Shown here: positions 4,236-45,700 of the stretch, in pieces
Layout of the letters: each line of letters begins with the position of its first letter
Position numbering within the stretch: the stretch's first letter is position 1
From: Pseudomonadota bacterium
GTDB lineage: Bacteria > Pseudomonadota > Alphaproteobacteria > Acetobacterales > Acetobacteraceae
Length of the DNA: 64,000 nucleotides
Reading direction: 5' to 3'
Assembly (NCBI GenBank): GCA_021809435.1
Contig: JAKBAD010000006.1
Span: forward strand, 1-64,000
Program-made: the position numbers and the translations under genes
The notes under the pieces: model-generated
Told to the model about the DNA's origin: nothing
What the model saw: the letters and a program-made list of their open reading frames with translations, nothing else
Database searches by the model: none

Positions 4236-4238
4236 GCC

Positions 4239-5794: not shown

Positions 5795-5900
5795 GTTTTG
5801 GCGCGGTTTAACATGTTCATAGGTATTTTTAGCCGTTAGGTTTCGTTCGAAGCCTGCATCACAGAGCGTCTATAAGTCGCCAAAAGAGGGGGAAGATCTG

Positions 5901-6278: not shown

Positions 6279-6308
6279 GCGCGCGGCAACTCAAACAATT
6301 TTACGAAG

Positions 6309-7722: not shown

Positions 7723-7726
7723 TGCC

Positions 7727-7765
7727 AAGGGGCGGTGGGCAGGTGCCCCCGCCTTATTTTTTTGC
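7727..7765. terminator. Probable bidirectional terminator between ALDH copy 1 and AraC gene
   Basis: An imperfect G-rich/C-rich stem (AAGGGGCGGTGGGC with GCCCCCGCCTT) is followed by a T run at 7757-7763. The convergent araC gene stops inside it at 7754. It would serve the plus strand best. Confidence 0.5.
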
Positions 7766-8782: not shown

Positions 8783-8925
8783 GGCGCAAATTAACCAAAT
8801 TTTGGCGCGTTTTGCAATATCTGCGCTGATTGTTTGCTTGTTAATTAAGCCCTGCCGCGTCACCAAAAAAGAACCAGTCACCGGCCCGTCCATCCGCTAT
8901 CCGAGCTTTCTGGGAGTGTTTTGTC

Positions 8926-10392: not shown

Positions 10393-10413
10393 ACCATCAG
10401 GAAGAAGCGCACC

Positions 10414-11712: not shown

Positions 11713-11732
11713 TTTTATCGTGAAAGGAAAAC

Positions 11733-12092
11733 ATGATGCTGACTCTTACCCCGACGATTGTTCCCAACCTCGATTCATGGGGCACGGTTGCTGATCTCGG
11801 TTCCGTCATCCTTGAGGGCGAAGCCAAGGCCTTTGGCGCTTTTACCCATGGCAATCCTGAGACGCCCGTGAGCGGGGGTTATTTTGCAGTCACACAAAGC
11901 CAGTTTCGCATGGTTTATCCCTTCACTGAACATGCCATCGTTCTTGAAGGCGAGGTGACGCTGACCAACGAGGCAACGGGCGCCTCCCATACCTACAAGG
12001 CGGGTGAGGGATGGATGATTGAGAAGGGCACACCAGTGCTGTGGACTGTGCACACGCCGCGCATGGTGAAGCACTATATGGCCGCTGTTTAA
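11733..12092 (+). CDS. Small cupin-domain protein
   Basis: This 119-residue single-domain cupin of the DUF861/EutQ-like type has the core GEVTLTNEATGASHTYKAGEGWMIEKGT and a preceding strand region. Such proteins often accompany PuuB-like oxidases and may bind a metal or small substrate. The catalytic role is unknown. It lies 20 bases after the oxidase gene. Starts at 11733 or 11736 are both possible. Confidence 0.75.
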   Translation: MMLTLTPTIVPNLDSWGTVADLGSVILEGEAKAFGAFTHGNPETPVSGGYFAVTQSQFRMVYPFTEHAIVLEGEVTLTNEATGASHTYKAGEGWMIEKGTPVLWTVHTPRMVKHYMAAV

Positions 12093-12160
12093 GGCCGCCG
12101 ATGATGGCGGCGTCGTGCCGCCATCGATTTTTAGCAAGTAACAAACAAGGGGAGACTAAA

Positions 12161-13291
12161 ATGGCATTGAAACTCAAAACAACGACGGCACTGGGCCTGG
12201 TTATTGCGGCCGGCGTTATTGCCGCGCCTGGGGCGGCCCGGGCTATGGTCGGACCGCAGGCGATCTCGATTGACGGCGGCCCGCTGGGTACGCTTTCCCT
12301 CAGCGGCGGGGCTGACGGCTATGGCTACTATATGAGCAACGCCACCTCGGGCACCAAGGATAACGGCATGTATGCCGGCAGTGCCTTGATCGAGGTGCAG
12401 AAGACCACCGGTGTGCTGCAGTTTACCGTTGAGGTTGGTTCCTTCGGCGGTTCCACCACGCTGGGCACCACACCCTCGCAAACCTCGACCAGCGTCTTCA
12501 CCACCGGCCCGCTCTTTCTGGGCTATGTGACGATCGCCCCGTCCAACCTGCCGATCACCGTCTCAGCCGGCCAGCTGGGCTCGCTGGAGGGCTACGAAGC
12601 CGGAACCGACTACAGCAATGCCGTGCAGCTCACCACCGACCTGTTCGCTGTCGAGAACAGTAATTCGCGTGGTGTGAGCGTGGCTTACGCGCAGGGCCCG
12701 CTCGCCGCCACTGTCCAGTTCGGCGATGGGGTTGACTCAGGCGTGTGGAACACCGTGCAGGGGCTCGTGTCCTACGCTTTCAACGCCACCAACTCACTGA
12801 GCGTGTTTGGTGCCTATGATCTCGGCAAGACCGGCCCCAACACCTACGCCTATGGCGGCGGCACATCGGCAGGCATTGAGCCTTATGCCAATGAGAACAT
12901 GGTGGGTGGCTATTATTCTTACACCGCGGGAAACCTGAACGTGGTGCCAGAGGTGCAGTATGTGTACGCCAAGGTTGATCATAGCCTTGGAATTAACAAG
13001 ACCACCTCAAATTTTGGCGCGGCGCTGTTCGGTAGCTATGCTTTCGCCAACACCCCGTACTCGATCGGCGGTTGGGTTGAGTATGAGAATTCGAAGGGCG
13101 CGTATAACTGGTTCGTGAACCCGAATTCCGAGGCCATTGGCGCTGCCATTGCCCCGACTTGGCAGTACAAGGATCTGTTTGCCCGCGCCAACGCTGGCTA
13201 TCTGTATCTGACCCGCACCAAAGCCTATGGCCACAGCGGCAACGGTCGTGGCCAGTTCCTGGGCACCCTGGAAGCAGGCGTGCTGTTCTAA
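12161..13291 (+). CDS. Outer-membrane beta-barrel porin-like protein
   Basis: The protein has 376 residues with a clear signal peptide (GLVIAAGVIAAPGAARA, cleavage near residue 27). Many alternating, aromatic-rich strands follow, with a terminal phenylalanine (GTLEAGVLF) typical of BAM-assembled barrels. The start at 12161 follows GGGGAG. The longer open frame from 12041 is rejected because it overlaps the cupin gene. It probably admits the amine or aromatic substrate. The exact porin family is not assigned. Confidence 0.8.
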   Translation: MALKLKTTTALGLVIAAGVIAAPGAARAMVGPQAISIDGGPLGTLSLSGGADGYGYYMSNATSGTKDNGMYAGSALIEVQKTTGVLQFTVEVGSFGGSTTLGTTPSQTSTSVFTTGPLFLGYVTIAPSNLPITVSAGQLGSLEGYEAGTDYSNAVQLTTDLFAVENSNSRGVSVAYAQGPLAATVQFGDGVDSGVWNTVQGLVSYAFNATNSLSVFGAYDLGKTGPNTYAYGGGTSAGIEPYANENMVGGYYSYTAGNLNVVPEVQYVYAKVDHSLGINKTTSNFGAALFGSYAFANTPYSIGGWVEYENSKGAYNWFVNPNSEAIGAAIAPTWQYKDLFARANAGYLYLTRTKAYGHSGNGRGQFLGTLEAGVLF

Positions 13292-32077: not shown

Positions 32078-32719
32078 TCAGAGCGTGTTTAGGCCCAGTC
32101 TCGCCGCCATCGCGCCGAGCATGGTGAAGAGGGCGACGCTGCCCATCTGCCAGACCAGCACCATCATCATCGTGTCAGCCGCATGGAAGAGCGGCAACGC
32201 GCATTCGGCGGCGGCGGCGGCGGCCATGGTGCCGCACAGGCAGGCGTGAGTGGGGCGGAACTTGGCGCTGTGGCGCAGCAGCCACACCATCGCCGCGGCG
32301 GGGACGAGTGCGGTCATGGCGATGGCGGGCACGCACAGCCAGTCAGCGTGCAACACCAGCGCGGCGCCGTTGGTTTGCACCGAGAGCACGAAACATTGCC
32401 GCCCAAGCTCGGCCAGCCAGATGAGAAAGGCCGCCACGGGCATGAAGAGTTTCCATGTTGGCTGATCTGGCCGGCCGGCGCAGAAGGCGGCGTAGGCGGA
32501 AATCACCGTCGTGGCCGCGGCCAGCCCTTCGGTCAGCAGGAAGCGCGGTTGCGCCAGCAGGCCGGCAAGGTCTGGGCGTGGCCCCATCATCAGCACGACG
32601 GCCGCCAAAACCGGCAGGGTGAGCAACAGCCAGCGCGCCATCAGCGCGCCGGGGGAAGGCAGCCGGCGAACCGGCGCCGCGTCTCGCGCCAACCGCGCGA
32701 TTAAATCCTCAGTCTTCAT
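32078..32719 (-). CDS. nrsF: NrsF-type anti-sigma factor (DUF1109)
   Basis: This 213-residue inner-membrane protein has a short cytoplasmic N-terminus (MKTEDLIARLARDAAPVRRLPSP) and about six hydrophobic helices. Cysteines lie in FCAGRP, GRQCFV, WLCVPA and HACLCG. NrsF proteins hold the ECF factor SigF at the membrane and release it on metal or oxidant stress via conserved cysteines. The first codons overlap the sigF end by 11 bases, the standard pairing. Confidence 0.85.
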   Translation of the reverse strand: MKTEDLIARLARDAAPVRRLPSPGALMARWLLLTLPVLAAVVLMMGPRPDLAGLLAQPRFLLTEGLAAATTVISAYAAFCAGRPDQPTWKLFMPVAAFLIWLAELGRQCFVLSVQTNGAALVLHADWLCVPAIAMTALVPAAAMVWLLRHSAKFRPTHACLCGTMAAAAAAECALPLFHAADTMMMVLVWQMGSVALFTMLGAMAARLGLNTL

Positions 32720-33278
32720 CTGCCCCCCCTTTCAGGGCCTGCTTAAGCCGTTGCACGGCCCGAAACGATGCCACTTTCAGCGCCGCCACGCTCATCCCGG
32801 TTTCGGCAGTGGCCTCTTTAAGCGAAAGCTGGCGGATTTTGAGCAGTCCGAGAACTTGCCGGTCGCGCTCGCCCAGACTGGCCAACGCTTTTTGCAGCCC
32901 CGCCTGCTCGGCGTCATGCTCTTGTGTGCCGTGTGTCATCAAGGCGCTGGTATCGGCGGGCAGGTCTTCAAGCGCGGTTTCGCGGCCGGCGTGACGATGG
33001 CGGCGGCGGCGGAGATCGGCGCCGCGCAGTTTGAGAATGCCGAACAGAAAAGGTTGCACGGGACGCGCCGGATCGTAGAGGTGGCGATTCTGGTGCAGGG
33101 CCAGAAGCGTTTCCTGCAGCATGTCTTCAATATCGGCGGTGCTGGCGCCGGGCCAGCGCCCCCGCGCCCGGCGGCGCAGCCAGGGCAGCGCGGCCGCCAA
33201 CAGGGCGGCATAGGCGCGCTGGTCTCCGGCTTGCGCCGCCGCCAGCCAGATGCGCCAATTGGGGTCTTCCTCTGTCAT
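32709..33278 (-). CDS. sigF: ECF RNA polymerase sigma factor, SigF-like
   Basis: This 189-residue ECF sigma factor has region 2 (AYAALLAAALPWLRRRAR through DIEDMLQETLLALHQNRHLYDP) and region 4 (LASLGERDRQVLGLLKIRQLSLKEATAETGMSVAALKV). The start at 33278 (MTEEDPNW) is preferred over an open-frame ATG at 33347, which would run into the neighbouring gene. It is expected to read the four TGTAACCTT-N14-CGAAYA promoters found between 34374 and 39308. Confidence 0.88.
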   Translation of the reverse strand: MTEEDPNWRIWLAAAQAGDQRAYAALLAAALPWLRRRARGRWPGASTADIEDMLQETLLALHQNRHLYDPARPVQPFLFGILKLRGADLRRRRHRHAGRETALEDLPADTSALMTHGTQEHDAEQAGLQKALASLGERDRQVLGLLKIRQLSLKEATAETGMSVAALKVASFRAVQRLKQALKGGADED

Positions 33279-33339
33279 TTGCCCTCTCGCTGTGGGCAAC
33301 GCTACCGGGCGCGCGGCCAGATGCCAATGGGACAGGGCG

Positions 33340-33951
33340 CTACTCATCGGTCAGGGCCAGTTTGGCGCGCAGCCGGGCCAGCGTGGCCGGCAGGTTGAGG
33401 CGCGCGGTGCTGAGAATTTCAAGCCGCTCATCGGCCAGCGGGTCGGCGGGGGCGATGGCGGCGGCGTGGCGCGCCAGGCGCGCATCGCGGCGGCGCAGAA
33501 GGGCCGCGATCTCGCGCCGGTAGAGCACGAATAGCGCGCCAAGTGCCCGGTTTACGGGTTCGGGGCCTGGGGCTGCGCGCCAATTCATGCGGGGCAGTTG
33601 CGCGATCAGCGTTTCAGCCGGGGTGAACATATCTGTTGTGACCCATAAATTGGTGGTGAACAGGCGGGTTGGGCGGCCGGTTTGGTCTAGCCCGATGGCC
33701 ACGACATGGGTGAGGCCATTTTCAGAGTCGCGCAGAAAGCAGTGAATATGTCCGCTTTCCATCCGTCCGCGATGGGCATGGAAGTAATATTGCGCGTTGG
33801 TTTTTGGGTCGCGAATATCTTCGGGCGGATAATGCTCGAGCGCCAAGAAAGCGGCGCCATCGAGCAATGTGGTGACGATGTTGCGCCCTGCATTTTCCAT
33901 CTCGGCCAGGGCCGAGACCAGTTCCATCGCCGCCTGGATTGTCGCGTCCAT
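33340..33951 (-). CDS. Hypothetical protein, 203 aa
   Basis: This soluble protein has an N-terminal helical part and a central strand-rich segment, ESGHIHCFLRDSENGLTHVVAIGLDQTGRP, followed by TNLWVTTDMFTPAETLIAQLPRMNW and an arginine-rich helical tail. It may belong to an unnamed conserved family (possibly DUF6969), which I am not certain of. It is upstream of sigF on the same strand, 61 bases away, so co-transcription with sigF-nrsF is plausible. Confidence 0.6.
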   Translation of the reverse strand: MDATIQAAMELVSALAEMENAGRNIVTTLLDGAAFLALEHYPPEDIRDPKTNAQYYFHAHRGRMESGHIHCFLRDSENGLTHVVAIGLDQTGRPTRLFTTNLWVTTDMFTPAETLIAQLPRMNWRAAPGPEPVNRALGALFVLYRREIAALLRRRDARLARHAAAIAPADPLADERLEILSTARLNLPATLARLRAKLALTDE

Positions 33952-34084: not shown

Positions 34085-34318
34085 TTAGTTGGCTTTGCAC
34101 TTGCCGGCACAAGCGCCTGTTTTGGCCTGGCAATTGCCGGTAAGGCTGGCGCAATTGCCGACTTTTTGCTTGCCGCCGCAATTGCCCGTGAGGCTGGCGC
34201 AGTTTTTGACGGTGGTGCCGGTGCAGGCGGCGCGCGCGGCCAGTGGCGTGGTGGCGGCAACCAGGCCGCCGAGCGAAACGGCGGCACCGAGGGTGAGCAT
34301 GGAGGCTTTGAGTTTCAT
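34085..34318 (-). CDS. Exported cysteine-rich repeat peptide, bufferin-like precursor candidate
   Basis: This 77-residue peptide has a Sec signal (about residues 1-30, ending PLAARA) and a mature part of about 47 residues with seven cysteines, including NCASLTGNC twice, spaced by small and lysine-rich linkers. It lacks the DUF2282 pattern of classical bufferin BufA1. Its SigF-type promoter and location in a bufferin locus suggest a metal-binding, perhaps post-translationally modified peptide. This is inference. ATG at 34318 is chosen over an upstream ATG because it begins the signal peptide. Confidence 0.7.
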   Translation of the reverse strand: MKLKASMLTLGAAVSLGGLVAATTPLAARAACTGTTVKNCASLTGNCGGKQKVGNCASLTGNCQAKTGACAGKCKAN

Positions 34319-34373
34319 CGCGGATATCCTTTTTGTGGGGTGGCGCCGGACCATCCGGGGGCCACTGTAGAGC

Positions 34374-34402
34374 TGTTCGTATGCAGGCGCGGCAAGGTTA
34401 CA
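34374..34402 (-). promoter_or_regulatory. SigF-type promoter for the Cys-rich peptide
   Basis: On the minus strand this reads TGTAACCTT, 14 bases, CGAACA. It matches the three plus-strand promoters at the -35 element and spacing, with one difference in the -10. It is 55 bases from the start codon. Confidence 0.7.
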
Positions 34403-34456: not shown

Positions 34457-35281
34457 ATGTATTTGGGTCTTGCTGAAGCGGCCCATCTGCGCGGTGAGTT
34501 TTCGTTGGGTCTGCTGGTGTTGCTGGCGGGGGCGGAGGCAGTTTGGCCGCGCCGGGGGCGCACGCAGCCAAGGTTGCGCCGCTGGCCCGGTAATCTCGGC
34601 ATCGCGGTGGTGGATGCGCTGGCGGTACGGCTGGTCTTTCCCGTAGTGGCGCTGGGCGTGGCGCTATGGGCGGCGCGGCGTGGCTGGGGGCTGTTGAACT
34701 TGGTGGCGCTGCCGGGCTGGATGAGCATCATCTTGGCCGTTTTGGCGTTGGATTTGGCGATTTATGCGCAGCATGTGGTGTTCCACAAAGTGCCGCTGCT
34801 CTGGCGCCTGCACCGTATGCATCATGCCGATCTTGATCTGGATGTGACCTCCGGGGCGCGGTTTCATCCCTTGGAGATCATGCTCTCGATGCTGATTAAA
34901 ATGGCCGTGGTGCTGGCCTTGGGGGCGCCGCCTTTGGCTGTGCTGCTGTTTGAAATCATCCTCAACGCCACGGCTTTGTTCAACCATGGCAATCTGGGCC
35001 TACCGGCAGGGGTGGACCGGTGGCTGCGCCTGCTGGTGGTGACGCCCGACATGCACCGTGTTCATCATTCAGTGCTGCGTGCGGAAACGGACAGTAATTA
35101 TGGCTTCAACCTGCCCTGGTGGGACCGGCTATTTGGCACTTACCGCCCCCAACCCAAGCTTGGGCAACTGGGCATGGTGATTGGGCTGGAGGATTTCCAC
35201 GAACCTGGTGCCTCGCGGCTGGATGCTTTATTGATTCAGCCCTTTATCGAGAAAAAATCTACAACCGATGACATATTGTGA
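34457..35281 (+). CDS. Sterol desaturase/fatty acid hydroxylase-family membrane protein
   Basis: This 274-residue integral membrane protein has histidine boxes of the di-iron hydroxylase family: QHVVFHK, HRMHHADLD, HPLEI and DMHRVHHS. It probably hydroxylates or desaturates a membrane lipid. It lies between SigF-type promoters but has no recognisable one itself. The next gene is 94 bases away, so I would not place it in the bufferin operon. Confidence 0.82.
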   Translation: MYLGLAEAAHLRGEFSLGLLVLLAGAEAVWPRRGRTQPRLRRWPGNLGIAVVDALAVRLVFPVVALGVALWAARRGWGLLNLVALPGWMSIILAVLALDLAIYAQHVVFHKVPLLWRLHRMHHADLDLDVTSGARFHPLEIMLSMLIKMAVVLALGAPPLAVLLFEIILNATALFNHGNLGLPAGVDRWLRLLVVTPDMHRVHHSVLRAETDSNYGFNLPWWDRLFGTYRPQPKLGQLGMVIGLEDFHEPGASRLDALLIQPFIEKKSTTDDIL

Positions 35282-35298: not shown

Positions 35299-35327
35299 TG
35301 TAACCTTTTACCTTGATCGTTCGAATA
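35299..35327 (+). promoter_or_regulatory. SigF-type promoter, 109-aa... exported small protein
   Basis: TGTAACCTT, 14 bases, CGAATA. The start codon of the exported protein follows 48 bases after the -10. Elements and spacing are identical to those at 35785 and 39280. Confidence 0.78.
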
Positions 35328-35375: not shown

Positions 35376-35702
35376 ATGAAACATAGATATATAGCGGCTA
35401 TAGTTTTAAGTGCGGCGCTTGGGGGCACAGCCGCCCATGCCGCCTCGTTTTTTGCGGAGACACCCACCGTGATCGTGGCGGTTGCCGCGGCAGAGTCGCA
35501 GGCGCAGCTTGCAAAAACCCTTGCGTCTGAAGGCTATGCCGATATCGCGCTCAGTGCGATACAGCCAAGTCTGGAAAATCCGCATCCGGAACTCAATCCC
35601 GCGGCACTTGCGAACCCTACCGGCACAGCTGTGCGGGAGGGCTGGAATGGTGTCGCGGAGAAAGATGGTCAGATCGTGCAGGTTTATGTCACCGGCTTGT
35701 GA
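35376..35702 (+). CDS. Small exported protein of the SigF regulon
   Basis: This 108-residue protein has a signal peptide (IAAIVLSAALGGTAAHA) and a mature part of about 85 residues without cysteine, ending DGQIVQVYVTGL. I do not recognise the family. It has its own SigF-type promoter and AGGAG ribosome site. Between it and bufA1 lies a second promoter, so it is probably monocistronic. Confidence 0.7.
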   Translation: MKHRYIAAIVLSAALGGTAAHAASFFAETPTVIVAVAAAESQAQLAKTLASEGYADIALSAIQPSLENPHPELNPAALANPTGTAVREGWNGVAEKDGQIVQVYVTGL

Positions 35703-35784: not shown

Positions 35785-35813
35785 TGTAACCTTCATATCC
35801 AGCCCCGCGAATA
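35785..35813 (+). promoter_or_regulatory. SigF-type promoter of the bufferin operon
   Basis: TGTAACCTT, 14 bases, CGAATA, with the bufA1 start 49 bases after the -10. Bufferin operons under SigF control are known from Caulobacter. Confidence 0.8.
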
Positions 35814-35862: not shown

Positions 35863-36141
35863 ATGGATCGCCGGAATTTTGCCGCTAAAATTCTGACCGC
35901 CGCAGTTGGTATCGCCGCCTCCGCCGCCCCCATGGCGGCCAGCGCGCAGAGCATTTCGTCGCCGAAGCTTGAAAAATGTTACGGAGTCAATGCTGTTGGT
36001 CGGAATGATTGTGCCGCCGGCACCCATTCCTGCGCCGGGCAGGCGACGATGGCGCGCGACCCTGCTTCCTTCGTGCTGCTGCCGCAGGGCGATTGCTCGA
36101 AGCTTGCCGGTGGCTCGCTGACGCCGGGCAAAGCCTCGTAA
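35863..36141 (+). CDS. bufA1: Bufferin precursor peptide (BufA1-type, DUF2282)
   Basis: This 92-residue precursor has a signal peptide ending MAASAQS and a mature part with four cysteines in the family pattern KCYGVNAVGRNDC, HSCAG and GDCSKLAGGSL. In characterised bufferins, cysteines are converted by BufB to copper-binding heterocycles and the product sequesters copper in the periplasm. The start at 35863 follows AAGGAG. The locus order A-B-C-DoxX matches this type. Confidence 0.85.
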   Translation: MDRRNFAAKILTAAVGIAASAAPMAASAQSISSPKLEKCYGVNAVGRNDCAAGTHSCAGQATMARDPASFVLLPQGDCSKLAGGSLTPGKAS

Positions 36142-36403: not shown

Positions 36404-37252
36404 ATGTCGAAGCTGGCATCCGCCGGGATCGGATTACGCTTGCCGCACCATGCCGATTTTCTGGCCATGCACCGTTCAACCGGCTGGGTGGAGGTGCATA
36501 GCGAGAATTATCTCAGCGGCCCGGCGCTCGCGGTTCTGGAGCGCGTGCGTGCCGATTATCCGGTGTCATTGCACGGGGTAGGACTTTCGCTCGGCAGTGC
36601 CGCAGGCGTGGACGACACGCATCTTGAACGTCTTAGGGTATTGGCTAATCGTATCGACCCGTTCCTGGTCTCGGAGCACCTGGCCTGGACGGGTACGGAC
36701 GGAGCGCATCTGGCCGATTTGCTGCCGCTGCCGCTGCATGAGGAAAGTCTGGAGATTTTTTGCCGCAACGTGATGCAGGCGCAGGATGTGTTCAAATGCC
36801 AGATTCTCGTTGAAAATCCGACGACCTATCTGCAGTTTCCAGAATCGACAATTCCCGAGCCGGATTTTTTGGCGGAAGTTTCGCGCCGCACCGGGTGCGG
36901 CCTGATCTGCGACATCAACAATATTTTCGTATCAGCCCATAATCACGGCTGGGACGCGCAAACCTATCTGCGGGCACTCCCGCGTGAAGCGGTGAGGGAG
37001 TATCATCTCGCTGGCCATATGTCTGGTAAAGGTGAAGCTAAGGGGCTGTTGCTCGATACCCATGACCGCGCGATTTCTCCGGCTGTGTGGGCATTGTTTG
37101 ATGAGGCGCTACGTATCATCGGCCCGCGTCCGGTGATGATCGAGCGTGATACTCGCCTGCCCCCGCTGAGTGCGTTGCTGGAAGAAGCAGCCCTGGCGCA
37201 GGCTCGTCTCGACGCTCAGGCAGGGAGAGTTGATCATGCTCTCGTTAGGTGA
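36404..37252 (+). CDS. bufB: BufB multinuclear iron enzyme (DUF692) modifying bufferin
   Basis: This 282-residue TIM-barrel protein of the MbnB/BufB family (DUF692) has iron-ligand segments EVHSENYL, LHGVGLSLG, SEHLAWTG, LVENPTTYLQFP, CDINNIFVSAHNHG and EYHLAGH. With BufC it is expected to oxidise cysteines of the precursor to thiooxazole-type groups. The ATG at 36404 follows AAAGGAGG. It overlaps bufC by 17 bases. Confidence 0.88.
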   Translation: MSKLASAGIGLRLPHHADFLAMHRSTGWVEVHSENYLSGPALAVLERVRADYPVSLHGVGLSLGSAAGVDDTHLERLRVLANRIDPFLVSEHLAWTGTDGAHLADLLPLPLHEESLEIFCRNVMQAQDVFKCQILVENPTTYLQFPESTIPEPDFLAEVSRRTGCGLICDINNIFVSAHNHGWDAQTYLRALPREAVREYHLAGHMSGKGEAKGLLLDTHDRAISPAVWALFDEALRIIGPRPVMIERDTRLPPLSALLEEAALAQARLDAQAGRVDHALVR

Positions 37253-37985
37253 CCGGCAGAGGAAATTTCAGGCAGCTTTGTTGGCGATGTCCGCACGCGA
37301 AACCACAAATGGTTTGGGAGTTTATCGAAATAATGTGCGGGGTAATCTGACTTTGGCGCTGAAGCTGGTTTTTCCCGCAACGCTCAAATTGGTCGGGGAG
37401 GATTGTTTCTGCGCTTATGCCGAGAAATTTCTCTTGGCCCAACCGCCGCGCGATGCCGATTTGCATCGCTATGGCGAGGCTTTTCCCGACTTTCTGGCCG
37501 CTAGTGCTTTGGCGGGGCAGTTGCCGTATTTGGCCGATGTAGCCTGGTTGGACTGGGGGGTTCACCACGCCTTGCATGAGGTGGAAATCCCCCCGCTAGA
37601 TCCACAAACTTTAGCTCACGCGCCAGAGAATTTCAGCTTCGTTGGCCATCCATCGCTCTCGCTGCGGGCGCTACGGCGCGACGCGCAAGCGATTTGGGCG
37701 GCGGTTCTGGAGGAAGATGATGACCGCCTAGCCGCTATACTGCCCGACGACAGCATCGCCCCACTGATCATCTTGCGTCCACGTGGGTTATTAGAGGTCA
37801 TCGAGCTTTCACCGGCAATGTTTGATCTCGCTTTAACATTGGCGAGCGGATTTCCGCTTGACGCAGCGCTCGCCGTTATCGGTGATGAAGAAGCAGCCCA
37901 AGCCCTGGGGCTGCTGCTCTCATACGGCATGTTCAGTGGCATTACCCCAACGGCAACAGAGGAGCGATCATGTCTGTCTCGATAA
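37236..37985 (+). CDS. bufC: BufC precursor-recognition partner (DUF2063)
   Basis: This 249-residue protein has the DUF2063/HvfC-BufC N-terminal helical domain (LSLGDRQRKFQAALLAM to YGEAFPDFLAA) and a C-terminal substrate-delivery part. It presents the precursor to BufB. The start at 37236 has GGGAGAG upstream. An earlier start would overlap bufB more deeply. It ends within the DoxX gene by 16 bases. Confidence 0.85.
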   Translation: MLSLGDRQRKFQAALLAMSARETTNGLGVYRNNVRGNLTLALKLVFPATLKLVGEDCFCAYAEKFLLAQPPRDADLHRYGEAFPDFLAASALAGQLPYLADVAWLDWGVHHALHEVEIPPLDPQTLAHAPENFSFVGHPSLSLRALRRDAQAIWAAVLEEDDDRLAAILPDDSIAPLIILRPRGLLEVIELSPAMFDLALTLASGFPLDAALAVIGDEEAAQALGLLLSYGMFSGITPTATEERSCLSR

Positions 37986-38425
37986 TTGCGCAACCATTCA
38001 GGCTGGTTGATATGATGATTGGTTTATTCAGCCGTGTCCCGTACTGGTTGGTGGCGCTCACCGCGCGCGTGGCGTTGGCGCAGGTGTTTTTCAGCTCCGC
38101 TCAGACGCATCTCGCGAACTGGGACACGACGCTCTATATGTTCGCCAATTCTTATCAGGTGCCATTATTGCCGCCCACCATCGCCGCTTATCTGGCGGTG
38201 GCGCAGGAAATTGCCATGCCGCCCTTGCTGCTGCTCGGCCTGGGCACGCGTTTTGCCGCTTTGGCGCTGCTGGGCATGACAGCGGTGATCGAAATTTTCG
38301 TCTATCCTCAGGCGTGGCCCACGCATATTCAATGGGCGGCAATGATGCTGGTGCTGATTTCGCAAGGCGGTGGAGGCGTATCCCTCGATGCGCTGATTGC
38401 CCGCATCTGGCGCCGGCAAAGCTGA
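37970..38425 (+). CDS. DoxX-family membrane protein of the bufferin operon
   Basis: This 151-residue four-helix DoxX protein has RVALAQVFFSSAQTHLANW and EIAMPPLLLLGLGTRFAALALL. DoxX proteins commonly close bufferin operons and may support the redox step. It is coupled to bufC by overlap and has GAGG before its ATG. Confidence 0.82.
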   Translation: MSVSIIAQPFRLVDMMIGLFSRVPYWLVALTARVALAQVFFSSAQTHLANWDTTLYMFANSYQVPLLPPTIAAYLAVAQEIAMPPLLLLGLGTRFAALALLGMTAVIEIFVYPQAWPTHIQWAAMMLVLISQGGGGVSLDALIARIWRRQS

Positions 38426-38482: not shown

Positions 38483-39049
38483 TCAGGCGACGCGATAGTT
38501 GGCGAACGCGGCGTCAACTTCCGTATGGAAGAGATGGTTGGCGTAATTGCTCAGTGTTTTAACCGCCATTGCCAGAATGATATCGAGCGCATGGCGGTCG
38601 GCATAGCCGGCGGCGTGGAAGGAAGCGAGGTCTTTTTGGGTGGGCAGGCCGCGCGTATCGAACATGATCTGCGTGAAATTGGCGAGCGCGGCTAGCTTCG
38701 GGTCGTTGATTGTGTCGCCGCTGCGCAGTGCCGCCAGGATATCGGCGGGGACTTTGGACATCTTGTCGGCGATCATGCTGTGCGCGGCGGTGCAGTAATT
38801 GCAGCCATTGGACCGGCTGATCACCAGAAACACCACCTCTTGCTCGGCGGGTGATAGTGCGGATTCAGCCCGGAAGCGCGCATAGCCATCAAGATAGGTT
38901 TGCAGCAAGCCAGGGGCGTTCGCCATGTTGGCATACATGTTGGGTATGAAACCCACCTGGGCCTTGGCGGTTTCCAGCACCGCGCGGGCCTCTGGCGGCG
39001 CGGTTTCAAGCGTGAGAGCGGGCAGGGTTAGCCGGGCTTCAGCAGTCAT
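38483..39049 (-). CDS. Carboxymuconolactone decarboxylase-family peroxidase-like protein
   Basis: This 188-residue AhpD-like protein carries the redox motif SNGCNYCTAAHSMI (CxxC with downstream His) in a CMD domain. Such proteins act as alkylhydroperoxidases or thiol reductases, consistent with a stress locus. The start at 39049 (AGGAG upstream) is preferred over an open frame reaching 39181. No SigF-type promoter was found on its strand. Confidence 0.8.
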   Translation of the reverse strand: MTAEARLTLPALTLETAPPEARAVLETAKAQVGFIPNMYANMANAPGLLQTYLDGYARFRAESALSPAEQEVVFLVISRSNGCNYCTAAHSMIADKMSKVPADILAALRSGDTINDPKLAALANFTQIMFDTRGLPTQKDLASFHAAGYADRHALDIILAMAVKTLSNYANHLFHTEVDAAFANYRVA

Positions 39050-39279
39050 AAATAAAGCTCCTGGTATTGTTGCGGGTTTAAAAGAAAAACGTGGGCTTGA
39101 TGCCAGGCAGACCCTGACCGTGGGCAAACCTCTCTTCAACGTGAAGGGGCGTGGACGGGATGTGGTTTGGGTTTCTCGCATCGGGTTTAAATAATAGAAC
39201 GGTCGATATATAATTCAAGTCCAGATAAATTCATGGTTTGCCACCGTCTGCTCTCCTGCGTGATATTTTTTGCCGTGGC

Positions 39280-39308
39280 TGTAACCTTTGCCCTCGATCC
39301 GGCGAATA
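39280..39308 (+). promoter_or_regulatory. SigF-type promoter of the MFS/radical-SAM operon
   Basis: TGTAACCTT, 14 bases, CGAATA, with a start codon 31 bases after the -10. It is identical at both elements to the bufA1 promoter. It drives five overlapping genes. Confidence 0.8.
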
Positions 39309-39339
39309 GAGTGAAACCTGCCTTGTTTTGGGAGCCAGT

Positions 39340-40710
39340 ATGGAAACGCCTCATGAGACTGCCTTGCTCGACACGCTTTCAGCCCTGCGCTGGAACCGCT
39401 TTCATACGGTGGCGGTGCTGCTGTTTGGGCTTGGTTGGGCGCTCGATGCCTTCGAGGTCACGCTAATCGGCAATGTGATGGGGGCGCTGAAGCAGCGCTT
39501 CCATTTGGGGGCGGATGGCATGTCCCTGCTGCTGGCGGCATGGTTCGCCGGGTTAATGCTGGGCGCTTCGGGGTTTGGTGTGCTCTCGGACAGGTTCGGG
39601 CGCCGGCGGGTGTTTCTGGTCAGTCTGGTGCTCTATGGGCTGGCCACGCTGGTTACCGGCTTCGCGCCCAACCTGGTCAGCCTGCTGGCACTGCGGCTCT
39701 TGGCGGGCATCGGCGTGGGGGCGGAATATGCCGCCATCAATGCCGCCATCACCGAGCTTGTGCCCAGCCGCTCACGCGGCTGTGCCGCGGCGATGGTGCT
39801 GAATTTCTGGCCGCTGGGCAGTTTCGTGGCGGCCTTGCTGGCGTGGCTGGGGCTCTCCACCTTGCCGCCAGATATTGGTTGGCGCGTGGTGTTTGGGGTT
39901 GGCGGGGTTATCGCCCTGTCCGCCGCCTGGTTCCGCCGGCATTTACCCGAAAGCCCGCGCTGGCTTTTAGACGCTGGAAGGACCGAGGATGCGCGCGCGA
40001 TTATCGCGGGCATCGAGGCGGGGCTGACCAATATTCCGCCGCCCGCCGTTCTACCTGCAACCAGCCGTATCCGGCGCGAGGCCGGGCAGTTTTCTCGTCT
40101 GCTGCGCCGATATCCCGGCCGCTTGCTTCTGGGGGCGGCGCTCGATTTCGCGGAGGCATCCGGGTATTATGGCTTGTTCGCCTTCTTACCGATCGTGGTT
40201 CTGCCCGCCTTGCACCTAGCACCTGAAGCGCTGCCGCTGTTCTATCTGGCGGGCAGCGTTGGGGCGGCGATTGGCGGGCTGGCCGCGGCCTCTCTGCTTG
40301 ACCGCGTGGGCCGAAGCTGGACAGTGGGCGGCTTCTATCTGGCCACGGCCCTGGGGCTGGTGGGGTTTGCCGCGATCACGCCCTTTGGCGCGGGCGCGAT
40401 CATGGCTGGGTTCGCGTTGGTCAATCTGCTCGCCACCGGCAGCTGGATCGCCGCCTATCCAACCTTCTCGGAATTGTTCCCCACCGCCTTGCGGGCCACG
40501 GGCATTGGCGTTTCCGTCACGGTGGGGCGTATTGGCGCGGCGTTGGCCCCCTTTGCCGTGGGGTATGTCGGCGCGCGCAGCATGGCGGCGGCGCTGTTGA
40601 TGCTGGCGGTGTTCTGGGCGCTGGGCGCGGTGGCGATCCTGGTCTGGCGGCTGCGCGGCGGGGTGGAAGCGCGGGGGATGGCGCTGGAAAATCTGGTTCA
40701 GCATGGGTGA
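39340..40710 (+). CDS. MFS transporter
   Basis: This 456-residue, 12-helix major facilitator has the motif-A loop GVLSDRFGRRR between helices 2 and 3 and FGLGWALDAFEVTLIGNVMG in helix 1, as in sugar/aromatic acid-type carriers. The ATG at 39340 follows TTGGGAG. It is first in a coupled operon with radical-SAM and transferase genes, so it may export the product or import its precursor. Its stop overlaps the next start by eight bases. Confidence 0.85.
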   Translation: METPHETALLDTLSALRWNRFHTVAVLLFGLGWALDAFEVTLIGNVMGALKQRFHLGADGMSLLLAAWFAGLMLGASGFGVLSDRFGRRRVFLVSLVLYGLATLVTGFAPNLVSLLALRLLAGIGVGAEYAAINAAITELVPSRSRGCAAAMVLNFWPLGSFVAALLAWLGLSTLPPDIGWRVVFGVGGVIALSAAWFRRHLPESPRWLLDAGRTEDARAIIAGIEAGLTNIPPPAVLPATSRIRREAGQFSRLLRRYPGRLLLGAALDFAEASGYYGLFAFLPIVVLPALHLAPEALPLFYLAGSVGAAIGGLAAASLLDRVGRSWTVGGFYLATALGLVGFAAITPFGAGAIMAGFALVNLLATGSWIAAYPTFSELFPTALRATGIGVSVTVGRIGAALAPFAVGYVGARSMAAALLMLAVFWALGAVAILVWRLRGGVEARGMALENLVQHG

Positions 40711-42400
40711 GCTGGCGCTGGGGGGCAAAATCCTCGCTTTTGGCGGGCCCTATAGCAACATCCAGGCGCTGGAGGCCCTGTTCGCGGCGGCAAGGCGCCA
40801 TGGCATCCCGCCAGAGCGGATGATTTGCACCGGCGATATCGTGGCCTATGGCGCCGATCCACGCCCCTGCATCGGCCTGATCCGCGAGGCTGCAATTCCC
40901 ACGGTGATGGGGAATTGCGAGGAGCAGCTCGCCGCGAATGAAGGGGATTGCGGCTGCGGGTTCACGCCCGGCTCGGCGTGCGACCGGCTCTCCGCCGCCT
41001 GGTTTGCTTACGCCAGCCGTGAGGTCAGCGCCCAAGACCGCGCCTGGATGGCGGCGCTGCCCCGCCAGATCATCTTGCGGCTGGGGCGCTGGCGTTTGGC
41101 GGTGGTGCATGGCGCGCCCAGCCGCATCAACCGGTTTCTGTTTGCCTCCGACCCCGATGAGGTCTTCGCGCCAGAGCTGGATATGGCCGGGGTGGATGGC
41201 GTGATTGCGGGGCATTCCGGGCTGCCTTTCACGCGCCCCCTCAAGGATGGCCGGGTCTGGCATAATGCTGGCGCGATTGGCCTGCCCGCCAATGACGGCA
41301 CGCCGCGCGGCTGGTACACCATCATCGAGGATAAGGGTGATGAGCTGGCATTTGCTCTGCACCCATTGGCCTATGACCATATGGCCGCCGCCGCCGCCAT
41401 GCGCCGGGCGCGCCTGCCCGAGGATTATGCGCGGGCGCTGGAGACCGGCATCTGGCCGAACCTCGATATCCTGCCTCATCAGGAGCGCGCCGCCACGGCA
41501 ACGCCCTTGCCCGCCGTTCCCAAGCCCGACGCGCGGGTGGCGCTGGAGCGGCTGGAGACGCTCTGGTTCAATACCGGCACGCTCTGCAATCTGGCCTGCA
41601 AGGCGTGCTATATTGAGAGCAGCCCGCGCAATGATGCGCTTTCCTGGCTCAGTCTGGACGCCGTCCACGCCCTGCTGGATGAAGCCGCCGAGCGCCATCC
41701 GGAGCTGCGCGACGTGGCGTTCACGGGCGGCGAGCCCTTCATGAATCCAGAGATCATGGAGATGCTCGAAACCGGACTGGATCGCGGTTTGCGCGTGCTG
41801 GTGCTGACCAACGCCATGACCCCGTTGCGCCACCATCTACCCGCCTTGCGTAAGTTTGCCGGGCGGAATTTGCATCTGCGCGTGTCGCTGGACCATTACA
41901 CGGAAGTCGGACATACGCGCTTGCGTGGCCCGCGCGCCTGGCATCCGGCACTTGAGGGGATTTCGGCCTTATCGGCGGCAGGCTTCGCGCCCTCCATCGC
42001 CGCGCGGTTCAACCCTGTTGAAGAAGACGAGGCCACTACCCGCGCCGGGTTCGCGAACCTGTTTGGCAACCAGGGCTGGGACATTGACGCCTTTAACGAT
42101 CAGCAGCTGGTGTTGTTTCCAGAGATGAGCGTGCCCGCCGCGGCGCCGGGCGTGAGCGCGGCGGCCTGGGCGGCGTTGCACCCGCGCGGGGCGGATGCCA
42201 TGTGCCGCACGGCCCGCATGGTGGTGCGACGCAAGGGGGCGCCGGACGTATCCATCGTCGCCTGCACCTTGTTGCCGTTCGAGCCGCGTTTTGAGCTGGG
42301 CCATACGCTGGCCGAAGCGGCAAGACCCGTGACGCTCGACCATCCTCATTGCGCCCGGTTTTGCGTGTTCGGCGCCTCTTCCTGCATGAGTGTGCGATGA
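40703..42400 (+). CDS. Metallophosphoesterase/radical-SAM fusion protein
   Basis: This 565-residue protein has two domains. Residues 5-270 look like a calcineurin-type phosphoesterase (GDIVAYG, MGNCEE, VVHGAP, AGHSGLPF), but the first metal motif DxH reads Gly15-Pro-Tyr17. Residues 285-565 are a radical-SAM domain with Cys295-x3-Cys299-x2-Cys302, VAFTGGEPFMNPEI and a cysteine-rich end (HPHCARFCVFGASSC) that could hold a second cluster. It is translationally coupled to neighbours on both sides. Substrate unknown. Confidence 0.82.
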   Translation: MGELALGGKILAFGGPYSNIQALEALFAAARRHGIPPERMICTGDIVAYGADPRPCIGLIREAAIPTVMGNCEEQLAANEGDCGCGFTPGSACDRLSAAWFAYASREVSAQDRAWMAALPRQIILRLGRWRLAVVHGAPSRINRFLFASDPDEVFAPELDMAGVDGVIAGHSGLPFTRPLKDGRVWHNAGAIGLPANDGTPRGWYTIIEDKGDELAFALHPLAYDHMAAAAAMRRARLPEDYARALETGIWPNLDILPHQERAATATPLPAVPKPDARVALERLETLWFNTGTLCNLACKACYIESSPRNDALSWLSLDAVHALLDEAAERHPELRDVAFTGGEPFMNPEIMEMLETGLDRGLRVLVLTNAMTPLRHHLPALRKFAGRNLHLRVSLDHYTEVGHTRLRGPRAWHPALEGISALSAAGFAPSIAARFNPVEEDEATTRAGFANLFGNQGWDIDAFNDQQLVLFPEMSVPAAAPGVSAAAWAALHPRGADAMCRTARMVVRRKGAPDVSIVACTLLPFEPRFELGHTLAEAARPVTLDHPHCARFCVFGASSCMSVR

Positions 42401-44463
42401 AACCCGCCCGCCTTGCCGTGCTCATCGGCCTTGTTCTTGCCTTTCTCGCGCTGGTTTGGGGGCTGCATCATTTTGGTGTGGCCAGGATGGTGGCACGTAT
42501 TGAGGCGCTCCACGGCGCAGTGGCGTTGCATCCTTTACCCGCCGGGCTGCTGTTTCTGGGGGGCTATGTGCTCTTCACCGCGCTCTCCTTGCCCGCCGCC
42601 ACGCTGCTCACGCTGGCGGGCGGCGCGCTGTTTGGGGTGGTGTGGGGGAGCGTGCTCGTTTCGTTTGGGGCCAGCATCGGCGCCAGCCTCGCGTTTCTCG
42701 CCGCGCGGTTTTTATTGCGGGATGCGGCATCGAGACGTTTTCCCGGAATCTTCGAGCGTCTCAATGAGGGCATTGCCAGAGATGGCGCGTTATATCTGCT
42801 CTCGCTGCGGCTGGTGCCCGCCGTGCCGTTTTTTGCGGTCAATCTGCTGGCGGGGCTCACCAGCCTGTCGCTGGCGCGGTTCTATCTCGCCAGCCAGATC
42901 GGCATGCTACCCGCCACCATTATCTACGTGAATGCCGGTGCCAGTCTGGGCGGCCTGGCCGGGCATGGTGCCATTCTGACACCCCGCCTGGTGACGGGTT
43001 TGGCGCTGCTGGCCATTCTGCCCTTGGCGGCGCCGCGCTTGCGCGACGCGTTGACCGCCCGGCGCCTCTATGCCCGTTGGCCCAGGCCGAAACGCTTTGA
43101 TCGCGATGTGGTGGTGATCGGCGCTGGTGCGGCGGGGTTGGTGGCGTCTTATGTGGCCAGCGCGTTGCGGGCGAAGGTGACGCTGATCGAGCGTGCGGAG
43201 ATGGGCGGGGATTGCCTCAATTCTGGCTGTGTACCCTCCAAGGCGCTGCTGCATGCGGCGCGTGCCGGGCAGGATTTCGTCAGCGCCCGCGCGGCAGTGA
43301 AGGCGGCAATCGCCGGCATCGCTCCGCATGATTCGAAAGAGCGCTATGCCGCGCTTGGCGTGGATGTGCGCCAGGGCGACGCCTTTATCGACAGTCCCTG
43401 GCAGGTCCGCGCCGGGTGCGACAAGATCACCACCCGCGCCATTATCATCGCGGCTGGTGCTGCCCCCGTGGTGCCGCGCCTGCCGGGACTTGAAGCCTGC
43501 GCCTATGCCACCTCTGAGACGTTATGGGATATCGAGGCGCTGCCCGACCGGCTGGTGATATTGGGCGGTGGCCCCATTGGCTGTGAGATGGCGCAGGCCT
43601 TCGCCCTGCTGGGCAGCACGGTGACTTTGGTGGAAGCCGCGCCGCGCCTGATGATGCGCGAGGATGAGGAGGTTTCCGCCCTGATGGCCACAACATTGTT
43701 GGCCCATGGCGTTATCGTGCTTACCGGCCATCGCGCCATCGCTGCCCAGCCTGGCGCGTTGCGCGTTCAGGGGCCGGAGGGGGAGCGCGATCTTCCGTTC
43801 GACCGGCTGCTGCTGGCCATCGGCCGTAAGCCGCGTGTGAGCGGGTACGGGCTGGAGGCGCTGGGCATCGGCCTGGGCAAGGCTGGAACCATCGAAACCA
43901 ATGATGGGCTGCAAACGCTCTACCCCAATATCTTTGCTTGCGGCGATGTGGCGGGGCCATACCAGTTCACGCACGTGGCTGGGTATCAGGCCGGGTTTGC
44001 GGCGCTGAACGCGCTGCTGGCGCCGTTCTGGCTGCTGCGGCCACGCTATCATGCCGTTCCGGCCGTCACCTTCACCAGCCCGGAAATCGCCCGGGTTGGT
44101 TTGAACGAGCAGGAAGCGAAAGCCCGCAACATAGACTATGAGGTGACGCATTATGCGCTATCAGAACTCGACCGCGCGATCGCCGAAGCCGATACCGATG
44201 GTTTTGTGAAACTGCTGACAAAAGCTGGGTCCGATAAAATTCTTGGTGTCACCATCGCCGGAACCAATGCCGGGGAGGTTCTGACGGGCTTTACCATCGC
44301 CATGCAGCACGGGTTGGGGCTGAAAAAATTGCTGGGTGTGATCTACCCCTACCCAACACGGGCGGAACTGATGAGGGCCGTGGCCGGGCAATGGCGCCAG
44401 GCCCACGCCCCGCGCGGCGCGCTGGTGTGGCTGGAGCGGCTGCATCGCTGGCGGCGCGGATGA
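42397..44463 (+). CDS. VTT/DedA-like membrane domain fused to pyridine-nucleotide disulfide reductase
   Basis: The protein has 688 residues. The first 220 form a TVP38/TMEM64-type membrane domain. From about 235 a FAD disulfide reductase follows, with VVVIGAGAAGLVASYVA, redox pair Cys273-x4-Cys278 in GGDCLNSGCVPSK, a second NAD motif VILGGGPIGCEMA, ACGDVAGPYQFTHVAG, and an interface end PYPTRAELMRAV in which the usual His before this segment is Tyr. It could move electrons to a membrane or thiol substrate. ATG overlaps the previous stop. Confidence 0.85.
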   Translation: MKPARLAVLIGLVLAFLALVWGLHHFGVARMVARIEALHGAVALHPLPAGLLFLGGYVLFTALSLPAATLLTLAGGALFGVVWGSVLVSFGASIGASLAFLAARFLLRDAASRRFPGIFERLNEGIARDGALYLLSLRLVPAVPFFAVNLLAGLTSLSLARFYLASQIGMLPATIIYVNAGASLGGLAGHGAILTPRLVTGLALLAILPLAAPRLRDALTARRLYARWPRPKRFDRDVVVIGAGAAGLVASYVASALRAKVTLIERAEMGGDCLNSGCVPSKALLHAARAGQDFVSARAAVKAAIAGIAPHDSKERYAALGVDVRQGDAFIDSPWQVRAGCDKITTRAIIIAAGAAPVVPRLPGLEACAYATSETLWDIEALPDRLVILGGGPIGCEMAQAFALLGSTVTLVEAAPRLMMREDEEVSALMATTLLAHGVIVLTGHRAIAAQPGALRVQGPEGERDLPFDRLLLAIGRKPRVSGYGLEALGIGLGKAGTIETNDGLQTLYPNIFACGDVAGPYQFTHVAGYQAGFAALNALLAPFWLLRPRYHAVPAVTFTSPEIARVGLNEQEAKARNIDYEVTHYALSELDRAIAEADTDGFVKLLTKAGSDKILGVTIAGTNAGEVLTGFTIAMQHGLGLKKLLGVIYPYPTRAELMRAVAGQWRQAHAPRGALVWLERLHRWRRG

Positions 44464-45134
44464 GGCTGGCGGTCATCATCCCGACACTCAACGCCGGGGG
44501 GCATCTGCCCGGGCTTTTGCATGATCTGGAAGCCGGGCGCGCCATCATAGCCGAGATCATTGTCTCCGATGGTGGCAGCGCGGATGATACCGCCAATTTG
44601 GCCCGGCAAGCAGGAGCGGTTAGTCTATCCGGTCCGCCGGGGCGGGGCGGGCAGTTGCGGCGCGGCGTGGCGGCGGCGCAGGCGGAGTGGTTGTGGCTGC
44701 TGCACGCCGATTCGCGCCTGCCGCCCGATTGGCCCAAGGCGGTGGCGGCTTGTTGTGAAACCGTGCCCGCAAACAGTGCCTGGTACGGCAAGCTTCGTTT
44801 CAATAGCCACGACCCGCGCGCCCGGTTGCTCGAAGGCGGCGTGGCGTTGCGCTGCGCGCTCGCGCGCTTGCCCTATGGCGACCAGGGATTGCTGATCCAC
44901 CAGGCGCTGCTCGATGAGATTGGTGGCATTCCCGACCTGCCGTTGATGGAGGATGTTGTACTGGCCCGGCGGCTGCGCGCCCGTTTGAGGCCGATGAGCC
45001 TGGTTATAACTACCAGCGCCGCCGCCTATGAACGCGATGGCTGGTTGCGCCGCGCGGCGGTCAATTTCTGGCGGCTGGCGCGCTTTCTGTTTGGCGCCAG
45101 CGCCGCGAAGTTGGCCAAGGGGTATCGCCGGTGA
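44460..45134 (+). CDS. TIGR04283-type family 2 glycosyltransferase
   Basis: This 224-residue GT-A glycosyltransferase resembles the TIGR04283 arsenosugar-cluster family: LAVIIPTLNAGGHLPGLL, EIIVSDGGSADDTANLA, GRGGQLRRGVAAAQAEWLWLLHADSRLP, and LPLMEDVVLARRLR. The family name comes from gene neighbourhoods. No arsenic methyltransferase is in this window. It overlaps the reductase stop by ATGA and the next gene by GTGA. Confidence 0.85.
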   Translation: MRLAVIIPTLNAGGHLPGLLHDLEAGRAIIAEIIVSDGGSADDTANLARQAGAVSLSGPPGRGGQLRRGVAAAQAEWLWLLHADSRLPPDWPKAVAACCETVPANSAWYGKLRFNSHDPRARLLEGGVALRCALARLPYGDQGLLIHQALLDEIGGIPDLPLMEDVVLARRLRARLRPMSLVITTSAAAYERDGWLRRAAVNFWRLARFLFGASAAKLAKGYRR

Positions 45135-45700
45135 GCCGCCCGGTTGTTATTGTGTTCGCCCGTATTCCGCGCTTGGGCGTGGGTAAGCGGCGCTTGGCGC
45201 GGGTGGTCGGCGATCGCGCGGCGCTGAATTTTTCTCGCTTCGCACTGGCGCGGCTGCTGCGCCGTCTGCGGCGCGTGCGCGGGGCTGAATTGGTTCTTGC
45301 CGCCTCGCCCGATCATCATGCGCGCTTTCCGGCGCCGGGCTTTACGCGCATGGGCCAGGGGCAAGGCGATCTTGGCGCCCGGATGCAACGGGCTTTCAAG
45401 CGCTTTCCTCGCCGGCGCGTGGTGCTGGTGGGCAGTGATATTCCAGACATTGAGGCCACTGATATTCGTATGGCCTTTCACTGTTTGCGTGGCGCCGATG
45501 CGGTATTTGGCCCCGCCCATGATGGTGGCTACTGGCTGATTGGCATGGCGGGCCGCCGCCCGGCGGCGCCGTTTGCGGATGTTCGCTGGTCCAGCGAACA
45601 TGCTTTGGCCGACACATTGCGCAATTTTTCATCTCGCCGTAGCGCGCGACTGCAGGTGCTTAATGATATCGACGACGTAAAGAAAATAATTCTGAACTAA
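45131..45700 (+). CDS. TIGR04282-type nucleotidyl/glycosyltransferase (DUF2064)
   Basis: This 189-residue protein of the DUF2064/TIGR04282 family has VIVFARIPRLGVGKRRLARVVGD, LVGSDIPDIEATDIRMAF and GPAHDGGYWLIGM, typical of nucleotidyltransferase-like folds. It commonly neighbours TIGR04283 proteins and probably builds an activated sugar or related intermediate. GTG start inside the previous stop. It is the last gene of the operon. No clear terminator follows. Confidence 0.85.
   Translation: MSRPVVIVFARIPRLGVGKRRLARVVGDRAALNFSRFALARLLRRLRRVRGAELVLAASPDHHARFPAPGFTRMGQGQGDLGARMQRAFKRFPRRRVVLVGSDIPDIEATDIRMAFHCLRGADAVFGPAHDGGYWLIGMAGRRPAAPFADVRWSSEHALADTLRNFSSRRSARLQVLNDIDDVKKIILN

Follow-up and report, generated by a model that had tools for sequence, protein, structure and literature searches.

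In the 64,000-nucleotide stretch of an Acetobacteraceae genome analysed here (the window, that is, bases 1-64000 of contig C10 in a genome of 2.65 Mb and 12 contigs), five genes on the forward strand probably form an operon for an arsenosugar-type pathway in which canonical ArsS would be replaced by a distinct ArsS-like radical S-adenosylmethionine (SAM) enzyme, fused to a remodelled phosphoesterase-fold domain. We give this reading, which rests on sequence comparison, a probability of about 0.6. The arsenosugar-type placement is supported by the collinearity of the operon with ArsS loci, the homology of its radical SAM half to ArsS, the ArsM genes neighbouring related enzymes, the co-occurrence of the gene families across genomes, and the presence of promoter sites for the sigma factor SigF; moreover, arsenic is likely to be the element handled.

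The five-gene operon and its ArsS-like enzyme

An earlier reading made from the DNA alone (the sequence-only reading) had proposed five genes with overlapping junctions behind a SigF-type promoter, and the open reading frames (ORFs, with chosen ATG or GTG starts), the domains and an exact promoter motif were all recovered:

39281-39306, forward strand: SigF-type promoter, exact GTAACC-N16-CGAA, with 33 bases between its end and the ATG of the transporter gene
39340-40710, forward strand: major facilitator superfamily (MFS) transporter, ATG start, Pfam MFS_1
40703-42400, forward strand: metallophosphoesterase-like/radical SAM fusion, overlapping the MFS gene by 8 bases; SapH-like metallophosphoesterase fold at about residues 1-258 and ArsS-like radical SAM part at residues 278-565 (Radical_SAM at 290-429)
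42397-44463, forward strand: VTT membrane domain/FAD disulfide reductase fusion (VTT_dom, Pyr_redox_2 and dimerisation domain), 4-base overlap upstream
44460-45134, forward strand: TIGR04283 family glycosyltransferase, 189.4 bits against a curated cut-off of 182, 4-base overlap upstream
45131-45700, forward strand: TIGR04282 family, CofC-like/DUF2064 transferase, 153.0 bits against a cut-off of 134, 4-base overlap upstream

The MFS gene, for which an alternative in-frame TTG start at 39328 is possible, has the aromatic acid/H+ symporters as its best NCBIfam subfamily model (193.5 bits; cut-off 418.55). The reductase of the VTT fusion is MerA/lipoamide-dehydrogenase-like, with a CLNSGC cysteine pair present in its sequence, and the last two genes exceed the cut-offs of TIGR04283 and TIGR04282, the two transferase families counted among the features of the canonical arsenosugar cluster.

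The radical SAM half seems to be an ArsS-like homologue distinct from canonical ArsS. The ArsS model, TIGR04167, is its second-best NCBIfam match, at 60.3 bits against a curated cut-off of 300 and over residues 282-430 only, and hhalign aligns its family with ArsS at 99.0% over columns 4-232 of 288. It contains a CxxxCxxC motif (C295, C299 and C302) and five further conserved cysteines (C501, C521, C550, C554 and C561), the arrangement of CxxxCxxC plus five C-terminal cysteines found in 15 ArsS sequences; in a MAFFT alignment of 46 sequences, all eight coincide in 27/27 sequences of its own family, 4/4 intermediates and 15/15 ArsS sequences. The intermediates come from loci L232-L235, a fifth distant genome, G286, having been left out. 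With GT1 and GT2 standing for genes that tblastn matches to the TIGR04282 and TIGR04283 proteins of the window, respectively, the gene orders of these loci are GT1-GT2-ArsM-radical SAM-VTT-reductase in L234, ArsM-radical SAM-methylthioadenosine (MTA) phosphorylase in L232, and VTT-reductase-radical SAM in L233 and L235. Among the open-access papers listed in literature searches, as judged by titles and the beginnings of abstracts, none was found to describe this radical SAM family or the fusion, with subscription papers and preprints outside the scope.

ArsS, together with ArsM, starts arsenosugar synthesis by adenosylating arsenic, according to the available portions of PMC8552651 and PMC12159101. 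The canonical cluster, represented by SsArsM/SsArsS of Synechocystis (PMC8552651, within its accessible text) and by plasmid pPg_02 of Pseudanabaena galeata, has four families in common with the window, and the VTT protein, the MerA-like reductase, TIGR04283 and TIGR04282 accompany ArsS (TIGR04167) in part of the loci; the annotated pPg_02 reads VTT-'mercuric reductase'-ArsM-VTT-ArsS. Among 20 canonical ArsS loci read for gene order, L196 (MTA phosphorylase-ArsS-VTT-reductase-GT2-GT1) and L199 (ArsS-VTT-reductase-GT2-GT1, with ArsM downstream and a divergent MTA phosphorylase) match the order of the window, and their GT2 genes also match the TIGR04283 model. L202 has ArsS, a gap, and then VTT-reductase-GT1-GT2. 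L201 (genome G418, 165-12254) carries AhpD-like, BufB, BufC, DoxX, a VTT/reductase fusion of 758 residues, GT2, GT1, a sigma factor of the extracytoplasmic function (ECF) type, ArsS and ArsM, and the exact SigF motif was not found in that stretch. In the 16 ArsS loci over the score threshold, partners within 10 kb are the reductase (8), VTT (8), GT1 (7), GT2 (6) and ArsM (5). Thus, the window resembles ArsS clusters in having an ArsS-like radical SAM gene in the ArsS position, the same eight-cysteine pattern and the order of L196 and L199, whereas it differs from them in that its enzyme reaches 60 of the 300 bits and is fused to a phosphoesterase, ArsM was not found, an MFS gene comes first, and the promoter is of the SigF type.

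In a phylum-wide sample of 299 genomes, which includes that of the window, canonical ArsS occurs in 114 and the radical SAM family of the window in 22 (17 strong members, without exception from the window's class, and 5 distant ones), without overlap, at E-value thresholds of 1e-30 for both and of 1e-20 for TIGR04283. The latter is found in 153 genomes, among them 21 of the 22 with the window's enzyme (G156 being the exception); within the 185 genomes lacking ArsS, strong TIGR04283 accompanies the enzyme in 21/22, against 15/163 genomes without it (p 5e-17, a value overstated by kinship). ArsM, searched with NF008823 at E 1e-30, is present in 10/22 genomes of this family and 8/19 ArsS genomes; both ArsM models were run on 15 ArsS genomes, 6 of which matched neither. 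ArsM is therefore not universal in either group, and its absence alone does not exclude an arsenosugar-type role. The host genome has an ACR3 arsenite efflux gene over cut-off, adjoined by ArsR-like and two ArsC-like ORFs (named by eye from the sequence), and an MTA phosphorylase over cut-off on contig C4, and canonical ArsS was not found in it by profile search at E 1e-30. The absence of both ArsM and canonical ArsS, which the sequence-only reading had asserted, holds for the genome at the thresholds used, and the ArsM/ArsS pair elsewhere that would have spoken against that reading was not found there.

Relatives of the fusion and the phosphoesterase half

A search of 150 genomes of the order with the fusion gave some match in 76, many of them weak and to other radical SAM proteins; the strong relatives are either fused as in the window or encoded by two separate genes, and the same gene families recur around them in neighbourhoods read as stretches of up to 20 kb. 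Of 160 stretches fetched, 135 gave a family match above 90 bits and are the related loci counted here; they were chosen for carrying the enzyme, some come from one genome, some lie on short contigs, and Acetobacteraceae-type genomes are over-represented. Partners within 10 kb are GT1 (35), GT2 (34), the reductase (32), the phosphoesterase (30), VTT (24), ArsM at ≥45% identity (8) and MTA phosphorylase (4); an apparent ArsM in L081, of 29% identity, was dropped from this count. The whole five-gene set is found in G087, of the same genus as the host, in G068 and in metagenome locus L082, and the first two genes of the set in G148; L080 has the other four, a TIGR04282 homologue not being detected there. 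The gene set that had been called coherent thus stays together in some of the relatives, which answers the objection foreseen for that reading, that the genes might never be conserved as a group in other genomes; the earlier statement that it matches no described system gives way to the collinearity of L196 and L199, the ArsS-like radical SAM half and the ArsM neighbours in 8/135 loci.

Unfused relatives are arranged differently, as in L033, which reads GT1-reductase-VTT-DUF547-(glycosyltransferases)-radical SAM-PhnD-PhnE-ATPase-phosphoesterase, with sigF/nrsF nearby. A plasmid of Roseomonas haemaphysalidis has a similar gene set, and on it a second, different radical SAM gene (L164, 10544-11923) lies directly before the family member. 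A scan of named genomes covered at least 595 stretches with at least 555 relatives, of which the best 80 were kept; among these 80, the two domains are fused in 10, and the phosphoesterase gene directly follows the radical SAM gene in L100, L121, L124 and L138. Two other genes also recur near the enzyme: a short-chain dehydrogenase/reductase (SDR)/thioester-reductase-like gene within 10 kb in 11/135 loci (L102, L106, L220, L221 and L227 included), often between GT2 and the reductase and sometimes with SigF sites, and, considered with respect to selenium, a homologue of a SelD-N-terminal-like oxidoreductase in 8/135 loci.

The first half of the fusion, about residues 1-258, shares its fold with SapH (3qfm), 3rqz, 2gju and 1nnw (Z 26-27, tied), in a comparison in which VIA-align re-ranked Foldseek's own matches; the structure model has a mean pLDDT of 77 and a pTM of 0.50, with a weak linker and C-terminus. 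Metallophos_2 scores 24.6 bits, slightly below its cut-off of 27, and the fold is backed by the structure comparison. Active binuclear metallophosphoesterases have D-x-H in motif I, GNH and GHxH, and this half lacks them: relative to 3rqz/3qfm, D and H of motif I are replaced by G15 and Y17, the GNH histidine by C72 and the second GHxH histidine by G173. D45, N71, H136 and H171 are kept, and the added cysteines C42, C72, C83, C85 and C93 are conserved or almost so. Since the replaced positions are presumably metal ligands or catalytic residues of the fold, with three of the usual metal ligands lost, we infer from the sequence that the phosphoesterase half has become a half site without ordinary phosphatase activity, and it may bind a thiophilic ligand. 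SapH, an asymmetric Ap4A hydrolase/phosphodiesterase, has this fold in common with the window, but the window's half differs in its replaced motif residues and added cysteines. An ordinary phosphatase step in the pathway is weakened as a candidate by the lost ligands (G15/Y17, C72 and G173).

SigF sites and the bufferin neighbourhood

Upstream of the operon lie a sigma factor gene with its anti-sigma partner, a bufferin operon and three further SigF-type promoters (promoters by motif search and genes by domain search, with BufB over its NCBIfam cut-off):

32078-32719, reverse strand: NrsF anti-sigma factor
32709-33347, reverse strand: ECF sigma factor paired with NrsF (SigF-like)
34376-34401, reverse strand: SigF-type promoter before a small Cys-rich protein
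34457-35281, forward strand: fatty-acid-hydroxylase family protein
35300-35325, forward strand: SigF-type promoter before a small secreted-looking protein
35786-35811, forward strand: SigF-type promoter before the bufferin precursor
35863-36141, forward strand: bufferin precursor (DUF2282)
36404-37252, forward strand: BufB, MNIO bufferin maturase
37227-37985, forward strand: BufC-like DUF2063 protein
37970-38425, forward strand: DoxX-family gene of the bufferin operon
38483-39181, reverse strand: divergent AhpD/CMD-like peroxidase-related gene

Common SigF control of the operon and of bufferin, a metal-binding peptide, as proposed beforehand, is well supported at the level of promoter sequences, because one of the window's SigF sites precedes the bufferin precursor and its operon (DUF2282, BufB, BufC and DoxX). 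GTAACC-N16-CGAA is the sigma-F promoter sequence of Caulobacter crescentus (PMC3511200, accessible text), and the genome contains both this motif and a sigF-nrsF pair, as in a SigF/NrsF regulon. The GTAACC/CGAA pattern with spacers of 15-17 has eight matches genome-wide, four of them in the window within 5 kb, and these four all start GTAACCTT and have a spacer of 16. The reversed pattern used as a control has 26 genome matches (17 + 9); with no enrichment in the genome-wide total, the one informative feature is how the sites cluster at these genes. In G087, the same five genes begin no more than about 40 bases after BufB-BufC-DoxX; SigF sites lie before BufB, and none was found between the bufferin operon and the five genes. 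The sigma-F/NrsF regulon of C. crescentus likewise combines the promoter motif, a sigF-nrsF pair and a bufferin-type operon (DUF692/DUF2063/DUF2282), but, as described in the available part of PMC3511200, it is without radical SAM, VTT/reductase and transferase genes; bufferin clusters are treated in PMC12452194 (available part).

SigF sites also seem to accompany the pathway in part of the family even where its genes lie apart. In the 135 related loci (2.2 Mb), the exact motif has 39 matches; 22 of them, in 17 loci, precede a pathway gene on the correct strand by no more than 250 bases, and the genes behind these sites include the reductase, radical SAM, GT1, the SDR gene and ArsM (L102 and L106). 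Sixty permuted motifs gave, in the same loci, a mean of 3.2 matches (maximum 20) and a mean of 0.02 upstream matches (maximum 1). No exact SigF site upstream of pathway genes was found in the other 118 loci. These counts exclude L146 and L147, which are the same contigs as L034 and L036, and a wider count of 48 motif matches, which takes in duplicated contigs and loci outside the family, was not used.

Several other genes of this neighbourhood recur near ArsS or near the family. A stretch 61% identical to the AhpD/CMD-like gene adjoins BufB in the ArsS locus L201, and in 15/135 related loci (14 of which have at least two core partners) a fatty-acid-hydroxylase homologue is found no more than 10 kb from the radical SAM gene; such homologues also adjoin ArsS in L197 and L200. 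It is a guess that the fatty-acid-hydroxylase gene belongs to the pathway, and it might point to a lipid-linked product. The Cys-rich protein (34085-34354, reverse strand) looks secreted, has repeated NCASLTGNC-like units, its own SigF site and no Pfam match, and is perhaps a second bufferin-like peptide. A 108-residue secreted-looking protein (35376-35702, forward strand) lies behind the SigF site at 35300-35325, also without a Pfam match, and a DUF6969 gene (33340-33951, reverse strand) runs with its 3' end into the beginning of the sigma factor gene.

Alternative readings and the proposed pathway

Several observations count against an arsenosugar-type role. The best NCBIfam model of the radical SAM half is that of the Rv1681 family, at 95.6 bits (cut-off 380) against 60.3 for ArsS, both below cut-off, and radical SAM families of unrelated function also align with this half; the hhalign alignment covers the first four cysteines only, the register of the last four resting on MAFFT. 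The exclusion between the family and ArsS is confounded with taxonomy, 0/114 ArsS genomes being of the window's class. ArsM was not found in the window's genome with three queries, at thresholds including E 1e-30 and E 1e-15, nor in G087, G068 and G148 with NF038099, and the MTA phosphorylase of the host perhaps serves only methionine salvage. The exact order of the window is seen in only two of the 20 ArsS loci, the others differing from it. In 69/135 loci none of the core partners lies within 10 kb, and a further 16 have one only (some contigs being short), which means that the pathway genes are often scattered. Finally, sigma-F of C. crescentus was studied with chromium and cadmium, and 'arsen' is absent from the main text of PMC3511200.

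A doubtful variant, nested within the arsenosugar-type reading, is that methylated arsenicals are scavenged, with a transporter (MFS here, PhnDEC elsewhere) replacing ArsM. It agrees with a host that has ACR3 and in whose genome ArsM was not found, and with the loci, in which ArsM occurs neither with the phosphoesterase (0/8 ArsM loci; p 0.20 in 135 loci and 0.04 in the 50 with at least two partners) nor with PhnD/PhnE or MFS homologues (p 0.09). However, these locus statistics are weak and tied to taxonomy, the variant needs import by a transporter that may work in either direction, and of eight relatives of the fused type that were tested, four (G111, G019, G073 and G069) have ArsM-like matches, below the family cut-off and within about 2 kb of ACR3, apart from the metallophosphoesterase/radical SAM locus. 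Unlikely, in our view, is the same enzymology on another element, with the ArsS-like enzyme adenosylating a phosphorus or selenium species (e.g., imported phosphite or phosphonate) to yield a C-P or C-Se sugar. In unfused relatives, the genes that separate the radical SAM gene from the phosphoesterase gene encode a PhnD-like phosphate/phosphite/phosphonate-binding protein, a PhnE permease and an ATPase; PhnD/PhnE or MFS homologues are present in 18/30 phosphoesterase-bearing loci against 0/105 others, and the fact that ArsM was not found in the host would fit as well. Nevertheless, ArsM lies near the same family in 8/135 loci, behind SigF sites in L102 and L106, and the order of the window is collinear with ArsS operons.

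That correspondence with ArsM and ArsS operons also argues against a general thiol/metal-stress module, in which the reductase, VTT and bufferin would protect the cell and the radical SAM enzyme and transferases would make an envelope glycoconjugate unrelated to metalloids; the SigF sites, the bufferin neighbourhood and the fatty-acid hydroxylase, DUF547 and dolichyl-phosphate-type glycosyltransferase genes of some relatives are in its favour, and we consider it improbable. Salvage of the radical SAM by-product 5'-deoxyadenosine/5-deoxyribose, instead of product synthesis, is very improbable: such salvage has been described (PMC6079011, available part) and MTA phosphorylase lies within 10 kb in 4/135 loci, but the transferases, VTT/reductase and SigF sites would be left unexplained. 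The arsQML arsinothricin cluster is similar in having a transporter gene and a radical SAM enzyme that forms a C-As bond (ArsL); however, as described in the accessible text of PMC8552651, ArsQ is GntP-like, ArsL has three conserved cysteines only, the cluster includes ArsM, ArsR is credited with its control, and transferases and VTT/reductase are not named. An arsinothricin-type cluster was rejected because of the transporter type and the number of cysteines.

In the arsenosugar-type pathway, metal stress would release SigF from NrsF and switch on bufferin and the five-gene operon. The VTT/reductase could bring an arsenical to the trivalent state, and the radical SAM part, by its homology to ArsS, would move the 5'-deoxyadenosyl group of SAM to arsenic and form a C-As bond. 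A nucleoside phosphorylase encoded elsewhere, of the MTA phosphorylase family on contig C4, could then take off adenine, the TIGR04282 and TIGR04283 proteins would, judging by their family names, activate and attach a sugar, and the MFS protein may transport the substrate or the product. A bolder possibility, advanced here only tentatively, is a second, ArsM-independent route to the C-As bond, in which the Cys-rich half-site domain would capture arsenite, an imported arsenical or else a phosphorus analogue and pass it on to the radical SAM domain, giving an undescribed class of sugars under bufferin's metal-stress switch that would be widespread in Alphaproteobacteria.

If the arsenosugar-type reading is true, this kind of biosynthesis would extend to Alphaproteobacteria without ArsS, and an ArsS-like radical SAM family without an NCBIfam model of its own passing cut-off would gain a candidate function. 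Moreover, SigF, which in C. crescentus was studied with chromium and cadmium, would be tied to organometalloid chemistry, and the two transferase families and the VTT/reductase become testable in one compact operon.

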